DNA from: Artemia franciscana
Taxonomy: Eukaryota > Arthropoda > Branchiopoda > Anostraca > Artemiidae
Assembly (NCBI RefSeq): GCF_032884065.1
Contig: NC_088864.1
Coordinates: 22,496,994-22,560,993 of the forward strand
DNA length: 64,000 bases
Direction: 5' to 3'
Of this stretch, positions 3,026 through 55,500 are shown one piece after another. Within the stretch, counting starts at the first letter, position 1. The number at the start of each line of letters is the position of its first letter. A program made the translations under genes and the position numbers. The notes under the pieces are model-generated. The model ran no database searches and was not told the origin of the DNA. It worked only from the letters and a program-made list of their open reading frames with translations.

Positions 3026-3080
3026 CAACTGTATGACAATTGTTAGTGTTTGAGCGAAGATTTCAAATTGTGGCTAGCAC

Positions 3081-29370
<26,290 letters not shown>

Positions 29371-31583: not shown

Positions 31584-34500
31584 GTAATATTTTGATGTCT
31601 TTATTTTCTGCTTATCATATAAGAAAACATATATTAGGTCCACATGACCTAGACCATGCAGAATTTGTAGTTCATGCTTATTTTAGGACATAAACTAGAT
31701 AGGAAAAAGAAATAGGCTACAATGCCTAATTCTTACAACTGGGAAAAATGATTGGTTTTTCCTCTAAATAGATTTTGGCTTCAAAGATAAGATTTTGGTT
31801 TACTTTTGTTCTAGAAAAACCTAAGGTTTTTGGTTTTCTTCTTCTGGTCTGGATAGGAATTATCTGAATAGCCTATTTTTTAGGAGGAATGCATTTAATT
31901 ATATGGTCTTCCAGTAAAATTCTAGTTTAGTGACTTCTTGCTATCTTAGAAAGGGGTTAGGTTAGGAAAATGAAACTTTTGGGGATGGGTCTACAGGCTA
32001 AAGTATATCTTAAAAATTACCTTAAATTGCAGCTTGGAGTGATATGAGGATTATCCATCCTTGTGATGCTCCATGAGAAAAAAAAAAGAATTCGTTTGGT
32101 GTAGATTGTGGCTGTTAGATTAGACTCTTGTGGAGGACTCTGCAGCTTCCCAATTGTAAAGGAACTCCTGGCAGAGCCATTCCCTATCAAGGTGGGACTT
32201 GAACATGTCAATTGAAGTAGCAGAAACTGTTTCTTCAGAGAGCTGGTTCCACATATTGATGATTCTTTGGCTGAAGAAGTGGCTTCTATGTCTACTCGTG
32301 GAATGCTGCATGGAGAGCTTCAAAGAATGTCCTCTAGTACCAGAATGCAAGGACTGTGCAAAGAGACTGGGAGGGTATTTTTAGAGAGGATTTTTTTGGT
32401 TAAAATAATGTCACCCCTTTTCCGTTGGTATGTCAGTGTTGGCAGCTTCAAACAACATAGTCTTTCCTCATATGGAAATTTATTCATGTTGGTAACCATC
32501 TTAGTGGCACAATGCTGGACATCCTCAAGCAACTTTCTATCTTTTTTGAAGAAAGGGGCTGCCAATGACATTCCAACCTCCAGGCGTGGACGCACAAGCG
32601 CCTTATATAGCTTCATAAGAACTCTAGGGTGTTGGCTGGAGATGGTTCTTTTTATGATACCAAGGGTTTTATTTGCAAAAGATGAAACAGACTTAGCATG
32701 GCTGCTAAACTTTAATTGGTGATCTACAATAACCCCAAGATCTCTTTCATCAGAAACAGCAGAAAGGAAGTTGTCTTGAAGGAAATACTTATGATGCTTG
32801 TTATTTTTGCCAAAATGAATTGCATGGCATTTGTCAACATTGAAAGTCAGAAGCCACATGTTAGCCCATCTTTCTAGACTATCAAGATCTGTTTGAATTG
32901 ATTGCTGGTCAGAGGGAGTAGCCGCTTTTCCAACTAGTTTTGAGTCATCAGAGTAAAGAGTAATAAGATTTGAAAGAAGGGTGGGTAATTCATTAACATA
33001 GAAGTTGAAAAGTGTTGGTCCAAGAATAGTGCCCTGGGGCACGCCACTTAATACAGTTGTGGGAGAAGAGAAATGAGAAGTTCCTTGCAAATCAAAAACT
33101 CTGACACTCTGTGATCTTTCAGAAAGGAAGCCCATAATCCACTGTACAACACCTTTGTTGACACCTGCAGCCCTCAATTTGATTATGAGGAATTCATGAC
33201 AAACTTTGTTGAATGCTTTGGACAGATCAAGAAGAATCATCTTGACAGGAAAACCCTCATCAAGCAGTGTAGTCACTAATTCATATGTTTGGATAAGGTT
33301 AGTGTCCACAGATCTACCAGATCTGAAACCATGTTGTGATGTGGAAAGGATATTATTGACCTCAAGATGTTCAATTAGAGCTTTATTAACAAATCTCTCA
33401 AGCACCTTAACAACTGCAGAGGTGATGCTTATGGGATGGTAATATCCTTAGAAGGTATTTTAAAGTACCCATCTCCACTCCTTCTCCCTCTAGAGGGTCC
33501 TGAAATTCGCCTACATAACAGGTCTCTATACCTATTGAAATTTTGACAAAACAATATTTTACCTTAACTTTCAGTAAAATTGGTGCAACAGTATTACTGG
33601 CTTTCATATAAAGTGAATATACTGCTTGATGCCTTTTTTAATGCTGTTTACAAATATAATAATTGTTTTTACCACAAATTCAGATTTAAGCACTTTTTGA
33701 CCTCTTAAAAATGACCTATATATGGGGTCATTACAAATCTGGAATAGTTTAGAAACAAATTTGGGCTATGTATTTGCACATCAGGGGGTGGGGGTAAAGC
33801 ATAGCATATATTAAATATGTAAACTAACCATTGCTGTATTTTTTTATGTGTTTGTGCTGTTACACTGGTGATTTCTCTTCTCATTAAAATTTGATGCTGT
33901 TCCACTGGTGATTTCTCTTTTCATTAAAATTCAGTGTGCACAAACATATAAAAAAAAATACAGCAATGGTTAGTTTACATATTTAGTATATGCTATGCTT
34001 TACCCCCACCCCCCTGATGTGCAAATATATAGCCCAAATTTGTTTCTAAACTATTACAGATTTGTAATGACCCCATACATAGGTCATTTTTAAGAGGTCA
34101 AAAAGTGCTTAAATCTGAATTTGTGGTAGAAGCAATTATTATATTTGTAAACAGCATTAAAAAAGGCATTGAGTGGTATATTCACTTTATATGAAAGCCA
34201 GTAATACTGTTTGCACCAATTTTACCTAATTTTCAGGTACCAGTTGCTTTTTCTCTGCCTTTAGTTCTGAAAATGTAATTCCTGTTATTGGAGTAGAATT
34301 CTGAGCCATATCAATGTGTTTTTTTCAAAATTTAGGAAATGTATTTGCATATCTTTAAAACCTTATAAATTGGGATTGAGCAAAGCTGTGAAGCTGAAAA
34401 CAATTTTGTTTTACTTCATTCAAGCAGAAGATCTATTTTGCAAGGTTTGGCTTTTATAAACACACATATTGTTAAAGGTCATCAAAGGTCAGGGCCCTCT

Positions 34501-49500: not shown

Positions 49501-52500
49501 TTTAAAATAACATATATTTGTTTTTGAAAGCCTTTTTAGTTTTCATCTTTCTATTTTAAGCAGTTAATGTTGCTTCAAGTGCTAGATAGTTTTACGTGTA
49601 TTTGGGCCTCAAGCGTTTTTGCGAATCCTTTTATTGTTTCCCAACGTTCTTTTATTGTAAATTTATCACGATTAATTAATAATATTATGTTTATCGATCC
49701 AGAGCTATCCATGCCCTTGAAGAAACTATTTTGGTACTGAGAGAGTCTCTATTATCATATCCTATATCAATGAACTTTGCTGGCATTGGACATTTTCGTA
49801 ATAAGGTAGGCAAAAGGTTTATTTCACCATTAGGTTTAACTCTTGAAAATTACATGACCTCTTACTTTGAATAGGGTAGCGGCTACCCTATTCAAATTTT
49901 TCCTGGTATTAAAAAAGTTCCAAAACTGTCAGAAGCAGAATTCGACAGAATTCCATAAGCTGGCAACGCTTTAGCAGGACAACTTGTGTTTTGACAGCTT
50001 TTATTTGAGCGAAAAGTATTTTATATATAAAAACGCATTTTCACACAAAATCTGCCAACAAATTTCACTTGGCCTTAAAACCTGCCGAGTAGCTTTCCTA
50101 CTATGCTACTCCAATTTTATATGACCGGGGTAGCCCAATGGTTTGTTCTTTACTAGGCTGACCCTAAGAGGGTAACCATGATGTTATCTGTGCAAAATAA
50201 CCAGAAATAAAGCATGAATTTAGATGTCCTTATAATTTCCTTGCTTCATTCTCCAGTACTCATGCTTGCAAACGGGGTATTCAATCCATTAAACTTGGGA
50301 AAATTCAGGTAAACGCATAACCGTTCATGTTGAATGGTTGAAACTCATCATCTAGAATTATCCCTTAGTGTTAAACTCCCTTGATGTGGAGAAAACTGTC
50401 AAAATTGTGTCAATCCTTATTTCTGAAGTCAGTGAGCATCTTAAGTCGGATTAACTCTCACAAAGTTTTTGACAAAACAACAACCAGAAAAAGAGAATTT
50501 ACAGGTGGTGGAATGCATTAAAAACCAGGGTAAATTTGGATATTTTTGGTGTGATTTGTCTTGTCAAAAGGATTGGCGTGAAGCTGAATTTATTGAAAAT
50601 TAGACGAAGGCTGGCATGTCTATAAATAAGAAAGGTAGTAACAAGGTAACATCTTTTTAATTACTTTATAATTAACTGAGATGTCTGGAGAATTTGAAAT
50701 TAAAGGACTTGCGCTAGCCAAATTTCGAGGTTACCCTAAATGGCCAGTTCAAGAGAGTCAACAGGAAGAACGGCATATGCTTTGCCATTTGAACGGCATT
50801 TGTTACGGGACTCATGAGGTGTTAAAAGTTCAACATTCTCAATTTGAATCTTAACAAGATAATTTCGAAGAAGCTGTTAAGAAAAAGACCAAAGGAGAAG
50901 CAAATGTATTCAGCGAAGTTGCTACTTTTCCATATATCTATTTAGAAAAGTTAAAATTGGAACAAACTTCTTTTGCTTCTGCACACAAAAAGATATAGAA
51001 AATCTCTGAAGTGGTCTGCGTAATGAAATTGAAAAAAGAGTACATGATAGCCTGTGCAGGATTCCTCCCTCGGGGCTAGACTCCGCAACTGTAGAAGACA
51101 TAGTGTCCAAAATCAATGATGCTATCTTGGTGGAATATTCAGTAAAGTTTACCGCTTTCGAAAAAATGCTGTCTGGACCAAAAAATCAAACCGGGTCCTT
51201 GGAAGACCGAATTGAGGTAATTGAATTAAAAATAGATGACATGGGCCAGAAGACAAGAATGGGCACGCATATTTTTAGTGGTGTAAAGCAAACACAAGAA
51301 GTAGTGTTGAAACGGCGGCTAAACAAATTGTCAGTGATAAAATGAGGCTAACAGATATTGAAAACTCACGCATATTGAAAACTCGTCAATTCCAATCTGC
51401 ATCTGATACAACCTCCAACGTGCCTCCCGTAATTGCTGTGTTCAGTAATACAGACGCTGCAAAAACCGCGTTCTTGGCTAAATCTAAGCTAGCGAAAACA
51501 GGTATATTCGTGTCTGAGCAACTTACTAAAAAGCGGAAGCAGTTGCTTGACCTGGCTCGCAATAAGTACGGTCCAAAAAACGCATGGTCAGTGACAGGAA
51601 TGATCTGTGTTATATACAGTCCGAATATAAGAAAACTCCTGAGTGCTAGTGATCTTGTCAGTCTAGGATCAACAACATAAAATTCTTATTTATTCGAATT
51701 AATTTCGTTTCTCATGCATATCTTTTGTTTATATTTCTTTCTCTCTTCTTTGTTTCCTTTTTTGCTTTTGCAAAATTTACTCTTACTGTTATTTCATTGC
51801 GTTTACTGTTTCTTCTCCTTAATCAACATTTTTTTATCTGTTAGTACGTGTAAGGGTCGTCTCACGATCGTTTGAAAAATTTTTGAAAAAAATTGGTTAG
51901 TTCTAGATGATGTGTTTTCGAACTTGTCGATTCAGGGGTCAGATTGTAAAGATGGTCTAATCAACTCCGCAAAGGATAGTTCATATGTTCAGATTGAGAG
52001 TCTTTCTGAATGAGATGCTAATAATGGTCACTCTTTACTTTTTTGGAACTGTCAAGGGTTTAGATCGGCTAAATCGTCCCTCCTGTCGGCAATAGAGTGT
52101 CTAAATTCCCAACCTTTGTTTGTTGGGCTATGTAAAAGTTTCCTAAATGATGAGGACGTGAATGAATATATTCCAGGGTATAAATTTGAATATAAAGGTC
52201 GTTCTTTCATACAGAGAGGCGGATTAGCTGTCTTGATTAGAAGAGATGTTGATTATAATGTAAGGCATGACCTTTCGCTCTGACTTGAAGGTAAAGTTGA
52301 AACTTAATTTATTGAAACACAGACTTCTGGTCCAGAAAAGTTGATATTGGGAATAGTATATATAGTAGCATCATTTTCGTATAATGATTTTATTGATGCA
52401 TTGGAAGATTTTCTATCTCAAATTACAAGTGAGGATAAAAGGATGGTTTTGATGGGTGATTTCAATATTGATTTGTTTTAATTCGGATGGGTGCGATGAC

Positions 52501-55500
52501 TTCCTTAACAGTATTTTGTCATCTTATTTATATCCTCTAGTGTCTATTCCTACGAGAATAACACAGTCTTCGGGAACTTTAATTAATAATTTTTTGTTGA
52601 TGGTTGATTACTAAATGGTTGTCTGACTGATGGATCAGACCACCTTATTCTAATTAGTAAAATTAATAATTGCAGTAGCAAGCCGACATTCTTGTGACAT
52701 CGTCCAAGAAGCGCCCTCAACAAAAAGAGCTTCTCTATTAATTAGAGCTTTTGCGCCAAATATTGGGAATCTACTATCATTCGATATCCGGTATTCAAAT
52801 AATCTTATCAAACAGTTCGTGGTAACAAACTGTAGTAAGGAGCGACCCGGCTCAATAGTAACCAAAACTCTAAAAAATAGAATTTTGATACCAATACATA
52901 CATCAAAAGAATCGCATTTTAATGCTGATTTTAAATATATAAGTTTCATCAAGTTTAGTCTTACCCATCAAAAGTTACGAGCCTGAGAAAATTTGCGTTA
53001 TTTTAGAAAATAGGGGGAAACGCCCTCTAGAAGTCATAGAATCTTGACGAAAATCACACCATCAGATTCAGCGTATCAGAGAACCCTACTGTAGAAGTTT
53101 CAAGCTCCTATCTACAAAAATGTGGAATTTTGTATTTTTGCCAGAAGGCAGATCACGGATGCGTGTTTATTTGTTTTTTTTTTTTTTTTTTTTTTTCTTT
53201 TTCCCAGGGGTGATCGTATCGACCCAGTTGTCCTAGAATGTTGCAAGAGGGCTCATTCTAACGGAAATGAAAAGTTCTAGTGCCCTTTTTAAGTGACCAA
53301 AAAAATTGGAGGGCACCTAGGCCCCCTCCCACGCTAATTATTTTACCAAAGTCAACAGATCAAAATTCTGAGATAGCCATTTTATTCAGCGTAGTCGAAA
53401 AACCTTATAACTATGTCTTTGGGGACGACTTACTCCCCCACAGTCCCCGTGGGAGGGGCAACAAGTTACAAACTTTGACCAGTGCTTACATATAGTAATG
53501 GTTATTGGGAAGTGTACAGGCGTTTTCAGGAGGATTTTTTTGGTTGGGGGAGGGGTTGAGAAGAGGGGGATATGCTGGGGGAACTTTCCATCGATAGTTT
53601 GTCATGGGGGAAGAAAATCTCCATGAAGGGAGCGCAGGATTTACTAGCATTATTTAAAAATAAAAATGAAAAAATAAATATGAAAAAGTTCTTTCAGCTG
53701 GAAGTAAGGAGCAGCATTAAAACTTAAAACAAACAGAAATTATTACCCATTTGAGGGGCTCACCTCCTCCTAATACCTCGCTCTTTACGCTAAAGTATTT
53801 TTAGTAATTTCAACTATTTATTCTACGGCTTTTCTGATTCTGGGGTCATTCTTAATGAATTGGGACAAAATTTAAACTTTAGTGTAAAGAGCGAGGATCT
53901 GACAAGGGGGGAACCCCCTCATATATGTAATAAAAATATGAGAATACAAAAGTTCTTTACGTAAGCTAATTTATAAGTTACGTAAATATTTTACTAATAA
54001 AAATATTCGTAAAAAATTAAAAATTCTAGTTGCCTTTTTAATTAACCAAAAAATCGGAGGGCAACTAGGCTTCCTCCCCCCCTCCTTTTTTCTCAAAATC
54101 ATTCGATCAAAATTATGAGAAAGCCATTTAGCCAAAAAAAAAATGCAAATTTTGTTTTAATTATTCCTCTGCGGAGAGCCAAAATCAAAACATGCATTGA
54201 TTCAAAAACGTCCAGAAATTAAATAAAAAAAACAAGTTTTTTTAACTGAAAGTAAGGAGCGACATTAAAACTTAAAACGACCAGAAATTACTTCGTATAT
54301 GAAAGAGGCTGCTTCCTCATCAACGCCCCGCTCTTTACGCTAAAGTTTTTTACTGTTTTAAAAAGAAGAATTGAGAGAAAGAGTCAAACTTTAGCGTAAA
54401 GAGCGGGGCGTTGATGAGGAAGCAGCCTCTTTCATATACGAAGTAATTTCTGGTCGTTTTAAGTTTTAATGTCGCTCCTTACTTTCAGTTAAAAAAACTT
54501 GTTTTTTTTTATTTAATTTTGTTCAAGCGATCAGCGTAAGGTCATTACAAGAAAACCTTGTCTTTTCATTTAGACCCCCCCCCTTTTATTTATTTTTAGT
54601 ACATTTTTTCCATAATTTCCTTTTTTTATGTAAAGTTATAACTTAGGTTATTTTTTTCCTTTATTTTTTTTTTAGTGTTCAGTTGGTTTATTCCATTTGT
54701 TGTTTGCTGTTTAATTAATACTAGTTATTTCCCTGCCCTAGCCAATCACTCATTCCATGCTTTCCTAGCAGGAATGTCATATTTTGTAGTTTTTTTTTGC
54801 GTTTAAATAAATGAATATGGAAAAAAAAAATCGTGAAATCGAACAAGAGTCCTTTTCTGCTTGCCGTTAAGCATACAAGCCTGGTCTGTTTTTGAATCTA
54901 ATTCAAGAGGTCATGGTTGACGCGGCCTGTTAGGCTGAGCTTGTGTCAGGTGGAAAGGCAGCCTCAAAAAGTTTCTGGACATGCTGACATCACAATTGTG
55001 GGCATCGCTAACAACAAGGTTCAAGTCTTTTTCCCATTTTACAAGCCTATACTTGCAAGAAGTCAAGTAAGTAAATGCTTGACTCTGTAACACTTAACGA
55101 TTCAACTCTAATCTCCTTTTTCAACTCAAAATTATCAATTTGGCTGTCGAGACTAATGTGTTCTAATATTTGCATAAAAGCAAAACTATGCCCTGGAACT
55201 TAAAAAAATTTGTGTATTTTGAGTAACAATTTTATACACCTAAATTCGGTTTGTTATGATTTTGGAGACGCATCTCCTAAGGTTAAAACATAAAATTAGA
55301 AGATATATTTTTGCCTTTTTTTTTGGGGGGGGGGGCTTTGTTTTGTTATTATTTTGGAGATGCATCTTCTAGGGCTAGGAAACATGATATTAGAAGATAT
55401 AGAATGTACTTGCTCGAGTAGAAAGAATGGGGTATTTATGACTTAAAATGCAAAGTATCTGTCATAGTGGTGTCCGTCCCCTAGATTTCACTGATTGACA

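Follow-up and report, generated by a model that had tools for sequence, protein, structure and literature searches.

Does a LINE of Artemia franciscana begin its ORF1 with a PWWP domain and, if so, what might the domain do there? The question is raised by a locus in a 64,000-nucleotide stretch of the genome, here called the window, for which the first-pass annotation had described a LINE remnant at 50681-52675 whose ORF1 region starts with a PWWP-like sequence. The remnant is real, while its limits had to be redrawn: a decayed LINE copy occupies the + strand from ~50429 to 52807 (Table 1).

The window contains a decayed LINE copy

The window element belongs to a LINE lineage of Artemia franciscana and is no longer alive. 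Its 5' leader also matches the genomic copies L031 and L032 (84-85% DNA identity from ~50450), and the leader segment 50589-50663 is common to most other fetched copies. The upstream peptide at 50445-50657, which precedes the PWWP, matched no Pfam family. The PWWP-like open frame extends from 50672 to 50851, with a Met at 50681, and the PWWP-like sequence resumes in the same frame past the stop codon. The coil-like and ORF1 C-terminal pieces that had been noticed on the PWWP strand were recovered there in frames 1 and 3, respectively, and the latter can be aligned to the C-terminal end of ORF1 in five relatives whose frame is unbroken. The AP endonuclease held up as well: with stops read through it scores 26.2 bits for Exo_endo_phos (Pfam cut-off 24.5), and it is, piecewise, 65-84% identical to that of L014 at the amino acid level.

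Judging from the mapping to three relatives, the reverse transcriptase (RT) of the window copy has been lost through an internal deletion at 52683/52684. These two positions map to 3394 and ~6207 of L014, which holds ~2.8 kb there, and 52671 and 52684 map to 3570 and 5654 of L011 and to 4011 and 5434 of L012. Downstream, likeness stops at 52807/52808 in L011, L012, L013, L014 and L016 among the matches listed. PDB sequence searches with the window endonuclease (EN) and the window C-terminal domain (CTD) returned only matches that we judged unrelated, scanning the window for tRNAs and Rfam families gave no match, and an NCBIfam search gave nothing useful. Scans of viral contigs with three LINE pieces and an RT from the window, and of genome contigs with the EN, confirmed no relative.

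Table 1. Parts of the LINE copy in the window.
Feature	Position	Strand	Basis or remark
5' leader of LINE	50429..50680	+	87.5% DNA identity to L014 over 50429-50699
ORF1 N-terminus, PWWP domain (frame 2)	50681..50965	+	broken by TAA 50852-50854
ORF1 coiled-coil part (frame 1)	51010..51345	+	82% amino acid identity to L014, order kept
ORF1 RRM-like part and CTD (frame 3)	51279..51680	+	70% amino acid identity to L014
ORF2 N-terminus, AP endonuclease, several stops	51900..52683	+	frame 3 to 52481, then frame 1
Internal-deletion joint, RT removed	52683..52684	.	judged from mapping to L014, L011, L012
ORF2 C-terminal end	52684..52807	+	89% DNA identity to L014 6207-6332; cut at 52807 by another repeat

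The ORF1 start resembles the PWWPs of HDGF and LEDGF

When the unbroken PWWP piece was searched against PDB sequences, 16 of the 17 matches at E<=1 were chains of HDGF, HDGF-related proteins, LEDGF or LD23804p, the remaining one being a sorting nexin (best E overall 0.0046). All 12 matches of the piece with the stop read through belong to the same four groups (best E=0.0049). LD23804p is presumably a PWWP protein. A profile made from two solved PWWPs ranks the frame first among the 631 ORFs of the window (18.8 bits, E=4.3e-5; runner-up 4.6). The window copy yields modest E-values, as it might if the likeness had arisen by chance. Against this, the same profile gives 18.6 bits for the read-through frame in the window versus 12.2 bits for the best of 100 shuffled windows, and the relatives described below yield a profile E-value of 1.6e-12 and five Pfam matches over the cut-off. 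A chance likeness, whose probability we put at next to nothing, is therefore rejected.

Pfam PWWP stays below threshold on the window copy (no match for the unbroken piece; 11.9 bits, E=0.33 when read through), and a single-sequence AlphaFold2 model of the window piece, with a mean pLDDT of 35.8, is of no use. By itself the window copy is weak evidence for a PWWP, and it is the genomic copies that settle its identity. Between them, the PDB matches, the two-PWWP profile and these copies confirm the PWWP-like start of ORF1 and assign it to the HDGF/LEDGF-like type.

PWWP-bearing ORF1 proteins occur across the genome

Five families with an unbroken ORF1 frame pass the Pfam PWWP model (PF00855) with 28.1-38.7 bits at a cut-off of 25.6. 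L009, whose ORF1 has 348 amino acids, scores 34.9 bits and matches HDGF at E=1.3e-7; L042, L043, L044 and L045 score 38.7, 35.4, 36.4 and 28.1 bits. A 23-row ORF1 profile searched against PDB finds HDGF (E=1.6e-12) with HRP2 and LEDGF next, and the closest solved PWWPs by sequence are HDGF, HRP2, HRP3 and LEDGF. Directly 3' of the L042 ORF1 (L046) lie an EN (Exo_endo_phos, 36.2 bits) and an RT (RVT_1, 113.5 bits), the RT matching LINE-1 ORF2p at E=1.1e-13. With an AP endonuclease and an RT in ORF2 3' of ORF1, the PWWP lineage qualifies, on its sequence, as an APE-type non-LTR retrotransposon. The C-terminus of ORF2 we take to be L2-like in look.

Colinearity was surveyed in 33 long stretches, in L004, L005 and L007 (~3.2 kb, PWWP only) and in the window; L001, L002, L003, L006 and L008 were left out as repeats of others. 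PWWP, coil, CTD, EN and RT follow each other on one strand in 20 of the 33 long stretches, which are not 20 independent events, since L012/L016, L031/L032 and L021/L027 are probable duplicates and L033 overlaps L012. The first-pass annotation had held that the link between PWWP and ORF1 must be proven in other copies, and these colinear stretches together with the five unbroken frames provide the proof. The architecture is thus PWWP, predicted coiled coil, RRM-like part and CTD in ORF1, with AP endonuclease and RT in the ORF2 behind it. The first-pass annotation had named full-length copies that lack the PWWP as evidence against the link; this objection does not hold for the five families with PWWP-bearing ORF1.

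The window PWWP has 56 matches in the host genome, the window itself included, 17 of which lie outside the fetched set. ORF1 is unbroken from the PWWP through the C end in 36 of 124 ORF1 matches. To the PWWP of one LINE family there are at least 150 dispersed matches at E<=9.3e-17 (best 150 of 1511 candidates); 23 of these 150 share 96% or more of their protein sequence, which makes the family look young. Some PWWP LINE families are apparently young, with near-identical copies in those whose frames have 354, 373 and 387 amino acids. All copy numbers are minimum values, since scoring was confined to the top candidates (116 of 3024; 150 of 1511; 150 of 1795). Among the pairs between families or subfamilies, the three least saturated give low PWWP dN/dS values of 0.24, 0.23 and 0.25.

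The PWWP piece might instead be a host exon or processed pseudogene lying next to a LINE by accident, and the broken frame and sub-threshold Pfam score of the window copy would suit such an origin. The dispersed, LINE-linked copies are at odds with the host PWWP gene exon that had been considered initially: the domain is fused in frame to ORF1 in five families, with EN and RT colinear. On these grounds we reject this explanation, which we hold to be very improbable.

Thirteen of the 33 long stretches are not colinear, of which 12 were tested and L033 was left out. In all 12, LINE likeness runs for at least 295 nt and beyond the PWWP end, for which reason the notion that PWWP-only stretches form a separate unit was dropped; they are, in our view, LINE copies that were truncated or suffered deletions. 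For 8 of the 12, the 300 nt that come after this likeness are also present in other stretches (a common repeat or a later LINE part); for the remaining 4 they are not. Seven of the 12 break at 295-366 nt, soon after the PWWP, two pairs of these being duplicate-like. A sister class with a 271-amino-acid frame (best 150 of 1795 candidates scored) may lack the PWWP.

The rest of ORF1 probably follows the order of L1 ORF1p

An AlphaFold2 model of an ORF1 relative has five strands (9-12, 20-28, 40-45, 51-55 and 59-61) and helices (62-71, 75-86 and 90-94) in residues 1-95, with block pLDDT values of 82-90 in this region except for 31-40 (64) and 91-100 (76). The N-terminal domain is thereby predicted to have the strands and helices expected of a PWWP. 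Long predicted helices at 115-151 and 159-224 are followed by a beta-alpha-beta-beta-alpha-beta arrangement at 227-299 and a C-terminal domain at 303-347.

Profile searches for PWWP and RRM domains in intact relatives, proposed by the first-pass annotation, bore out the PWWP in five families; for the RRM they gave 2ykp (L1 ORF1p) at E=0.13 with the 23-row profile. Further along this profile, the LINE-1 ORF1p coil 6fia matches at E=0.027, and unrelated coils such as that of reovirus sigma-1 do better (0.00093). Baculo_FP_2nd reaches 22.9 bits in L043, under its cut-off of 24. A heptad test on the decayed coil piece of the window is weak, 29 of 500 shuffles reaching its score. Human L1 ORF1p (2yko/2ykp, 6fia) has the order of coiled coil, RRM-like part and CTD that is predicted here, and the profile matches to it keep this order, if weakly (E 0.027-0.14). 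To our knowledge, it has no PWWP head.

Three of four aromatic cage positions are kept

We compared the positions corresponding to PSIP1 M15, Y18, W21 and F44. In the five unbroken families the first is F (5/5), the second Y (4/5, plus one F) and the third W (5/5), while all five carry Cys where LEDGF has F44. The 23-row alignment, whose rows were hand-chosen, gives F 20/20, Y 17/20, W 19/20 and Cys 21/21. Because this choice had passed over copies in which the F44 position is not Cys, a wider 33-row tally was added (F 28/31, Y 26/31 and W 27/31, counting rows with a letter), where the F44 position has 26 Cys, 2 Trp, 2 Leu and 2 Ser in 32 rows. PSIP1 no longer bound nucleosomes when mutated to F44A or W21A, perhaps through misfolding (PMC3663649). 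The Cys tells somewhat against a classical H3K36me3 reader.

The domain could accordingly be a general grip on nucleosomes, DNA or RNA that reads no mark and keeps the RNP nuclear or on chromatin with no preference for gene bodies. This unlikely, though not negligible, explanation draws on the lack of F at the F44 position in 32/32 rows and on the binding of PWWPs to DNA via a surface separate from the cage (PMC3663649, PMC6877644). It fits less well with the other three positions, aromatic in 5/5 unbroken families beyond what a bare DNA grip needs, or with the domain tail, which is not clearly basic (K+R 4-6 vs D+E 4-7 in the five families). A role in protein assembly or in docking to a non-chromatin partner such as a host factor, with no nucleosome contact, seems to us rather improbable: PWWPs were originally put forward as domains for protein interaction, yet three cage positions are kept. 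Among the nearest solved relatives, HDGF, HRP2 and HRP3 are chromatin proteins. The fourth, LEDGF, is one too (PMC3663649).

Discussion

We favour, by a little, the reading that the window holds a copy of a LINE lineage whose ORF1 comprises PWWP, coil, RRM-like part and CTD and whose PWWP is a built-in LEDGF-like tether. ORF1p would multimerise through its coil and coat the element RNA with its RRM/CTD, as L1 ORF1p does, and the N-terminal PWWPs would then hold the RNP on nucleosomes, probably of transcribed chromatin, ahead of target-primed reverse transcription. Holding the RNP in this way, the element would carry its own LEDGF-like tether, and the ORF1 PWWP could influence its insertion sites. 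That the lineage took up an HDGF/LEDGF-type PWWP specifically as a tether to H3K36-methylated or otherwise marked chromatin is a more tentative proposal, which we rate somewhat short of even.

Chromodomain LTR retrotransposons are mobile elements that likewise carry a histone-reader type domain of their own. They differ in being LTR elements with a polyprotein fusion and in having a chromodomain rather than a PWWP; one Ty3-family polyprotein has its chromodomain at the C-terminus (PMC5906684). In the type II ORF1 LINEs of L2 subgroup 6 and CR1 subgroup 5, described by Metcalfe and Casane (2014, PMC4120745), a chromatin-reader type domain also stands N-terminally in front of coiled coil, RRM and CTD; it is a PHD zinc finger there and a PWWP in the Artemia franciscana element. 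Metcalfe and Casane already suggested that the PHD is perhaps involved in integration targeting, and knew of no functional study of PHD fingers in LINEs (section 12); the word PWWP does not occur in the main text of their article. None of the papers that we searched reports a PWWP in a LINE ORF1. LEDGF/p75 (PSIP1), HDGF, HDGF-related proteins and JASPer are host proteins, whereas the Artemia LINE encodes its own PWWP, with Cys for LEDGF F44. The LEDGF PWWP tethers the retroviral intasome to H3K36me3 chromatin (PMC8149907), and Drosophila JASPer anchors a kinase to H3K36me3 (PMC6877644).

If the tether reading is true, a LINE achieves alone what lentiviruses achieve with a borrowed LEDGF, the cage Cys of all five families would point to a specificity of its own, and the sister class, should it lack the PWWP, would be a natural control. 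The site choice of LINEs with a relaxed endonuclease has yet to be explained. Much is known about the nearest PWWPs, and their usual mark, H3K36me, sits on active genes, which makes the idea of ORF1 as a guide testable with the PWWP. Young PWWP families and a sister class that may have no PWWP apparently occur together in this one genome, where their insertions can be compared site by site.

A broken LINE in the window has a PWWP-like ORF1 start

The first-pass annotation had described a LINE remnant at 50681-52675 whose ORF1 starts with a PWWP-like domain, followed on the same strand by coil, C-terminal and endonuclease parts. PDB matches and window-wide controls agree with a broken element of this kind; its limits, however, had been drawn too narrowly, since it runs from 50429 to 52807. 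The frame covering the ORF1 N-terminus (50681-50851) has a best PDB match of E=0.0046, and 16 of its 17 hits are HDGF-related PWWP proteins. Once TAA 50852-50854 is read through, the PWWP likeness spans the domain (PDB E=0.0049; 12/12 hits at E<=1). In a Pfam search with unbroken and read-through pieces the window copy stayed below the cut-off for PWWP. A profile built from two solved PWWP domains placed the frame first among 631 window ORFs (18.8 bits; runner-up 4.6), and the read-through frames of the window reached 18.6 bits compared to a top of 12.2 across 100 shuffled windows. This ranking and the shuffling control argue against a chance likeness. The repeat that cuts the element has its left end at 52807/52808 in at least five matched loci, among the matches listed.

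Features of the window and of related Artemia franciscana LINEs (L, fetched stretches; positions are those of the window unless a contig is named)
Feature	Position	Strand	Observation
LINE element	50429 to 52807		leader from 50429 common to L014
Coil, C-terminal and endonuclease pieces	3' of PWWP	same as PWWP	spread over more than one frame
Internal deletion joint	52683/52684		RT lost
Common repeat adjoining and cutting the LINE	52807-54499		at least 7 other loci matched, among matches listed
RT of another retroelement	32323-33447	-	RVT_1, 97.4 bits
RT of another retroelement	24967-25428	+	RVT_1, 41.9 bits
Possible host exon, type I phosphodiesterase domain	3078-3479	+	Pfam, 86 bits
L009 ORF1			348 aa, single frame; Pfam PWWP 34.9 bits; HDGF E=1.3e-7
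L042 ORF1			363 aa; Pfam PWWP 38.7 bits
L043 ORF1			347 aa within stretch, start outside it; Pfam PWWP 35.4 bits
L044 ORF1			348 aa; Pfam PWWP 36.4 bits
L045 ORF1			360 aa; Pfam PWWP 28.1 bits
271-aa-frame class, example	G000:C12:38855-39244	+	13 others alike; most copies equal in score

The PWWP belongs to ORF1 in other copies

In the 1.27 Gb assembly (window, G000:C2:22496994-22560993) the 57-aa PWWP piece of the window has 56 matches at E<=1e-3, the window copy counted. Thirty-three long stretches were fetched; L033 overlaps L012, and some resemble duplicates of one another. The link between PWWP and LINE, which had been left to be sought in other copies, is found both in stretches with PWWP, coil, C-terminal domain (CTD), endonuclease (EN) and RT in order on one strand (20/33: L009-L014, L016-L018, L024, L028-L032, L034, L037, L038, L040, L041) and within one-frame ORF1s of five families. 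The other 13 stretches are without at least one part (L015, L019, L020, L021, L022, L023, L025, L026, L027, L033, L035, L036, L039). LINE likeness ends 295-366 nt into ORF1, right after the PWWP, in L020, L021, L022, L023, L026, L027 and L039; downstream LINE parts are present in L021, L022 and L027, with coil and CTD missing. In L012 and L016 the PWWP occurs twice in tandem, each time with a portion of the coil, before a single CTD.

The search for intact relatives, combined with profile scans of translated ORF1, yielded these five unbroken families, whose PWWPs score 28.1-38.7 bits versus a cut-off of 25.6. The ORF1s of L042-L045 can be aligned to that of L009 along their length. Used as genome query, the L009 ORF1 has at least 124 matches (best 116 of 3024 candidates scored). 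Residue 15 or earlier through 345 or later is covered in 59 of the 124 listed, 36 of them stop-free; another 21 begin past residue 95 and extend to at least 336, as 5'-truncated or broken copies would. In L046, downstream of L042, EN (36.2 bits) and RT (113.5 bits) share a frame that is interrupted between the two by one stop or more; this RT matches LINE-1 ORF2p (E=1.1e-13), and R2 more weakly. A run of about 30 T separates ORF1 from ORF2, at the start of L046 directly after the L042 ORF1.

A profile from a 23-row ORF1 alignment matches HDGF (1.6e-12), then HRP2 and LEDGF, over residues 1-87. Its later residues match the LINE-1 ORF1p coil (0.027) and 2ykp (0.13); coiled coils of unrelated proteins also match the coil region, reovirus sigma-1 at 0.00093. 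The AlphaFold2 model from this alignment (mean pLDDT 79.8, pTM 0.48) predicts, at the N-terminus, a domain with five strands and then helices, followed by long helices (115-151, 159-224), a beta-alpha-beta-beta-alpha-beta part (227-299) and a C-terminal domain.

The first-pass annotation knew of no LINE ORF1 with a PWWP, which agrees with the literature searched; this search did not extend to Repbase and most subscription journals. None is described in the accessible parts of PMC3978060, PMC5906684 and PMC6877644, and PWWP is absent from the main text of the assembly paper (PMC11492255), which gives LINEs as the most abundant transposable elements of Artemia franciscana (12.75%). Type II LINE ORF1s bearing a PHD are already known (PMC4120745); the Artemia LINEs differ in that their ORF1 carries a PWWP.

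Age and selection

The L044 PWWP part alone has at least 150 genome matches at E<=9.3e-17 (best 150 of 1511 candidates). Among those listed, 23 are at least 96% identical to it, and for 16 of these the surrounding open frame measures 354 aa; because of this near-identity and the open frames, the family looks young. By a simple counting method, PWWP dN/dS is finite in 19/28 pairs (0.13-0.64, the top being L042-L043). The synonymous distance is near 1 in three pairs that span families or subfamilies, most of the remaining pairs being saturated: L009-L042 (0.24, dS 1.19), L042-L010 (0.23, dS 1.17; not independent of the former, as L010 is nearly L009) and L014-L017 (0.25, dS 0.81; both decayed). 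CTD values are 0.18, 0.22 and 0.25. The closest pair, L009-L010, has zero synonymous and few nonsynonymous PWWP changes and is uninformative. We read these ratios as purifying selection on the PWWP during family divergence.

Aromatic cage and possible function

The PSIP1 (LEDGF) cage consists of M15, Y18, W21 and F44, flanked by H48 and E49 (excerpt of PMC3663649); Y23 and W26 are cage residues of JASPer (PMC6877644, in part). In the 23-row alignment the LINE PWWPs have F (20/20), Y (17/20), W (19/20) and Cys (21/21) at the four cage positions; the flanking positions hold H (18/21) and an acidic residue, D or E (20/21). A wider tally of 33 rows, which includes decayed and locally out-of-frame copies, gives F 28/31, Y 26/31 and W 27/31 for the first three. 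At the F44 position (n=32) it gives Cys 26, Trp 2 (L024, L030), Leu 2 (L031, L032) and Ser 2. Unlike PSIP1, the LINE PWWPs mostly have Cys and in no row F there, and all five unbroken families share this Cys (residue 45 of L009 ORF1). Mainly because F44 is missing, we do not claim H3K36me reading. Since the closest relatives tether to chromatin and three cage positions are kept, we put first the reading that the LINE PWWP may serve in chromatin tethering.

The C-terminal 133 aa of L043 have at least 150 genome matches (best 150 of 1795 candidates), 16 of which, among those listed, lie in a 271-aa frame: 14 form a single class (51-52% identity) and 2, with a TAA, belong to another family. No PWWP match lies near any of the 14 among the best 150 of 1511 L044-PWWP candidates, and L043-family copies do have one nearby in that listing (e.g. 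C12:12084813). The four ORF1 parts together would not fit into 271 aa. This class likely lacks the PWWP, and it is a possible natural control for the PWWP families.
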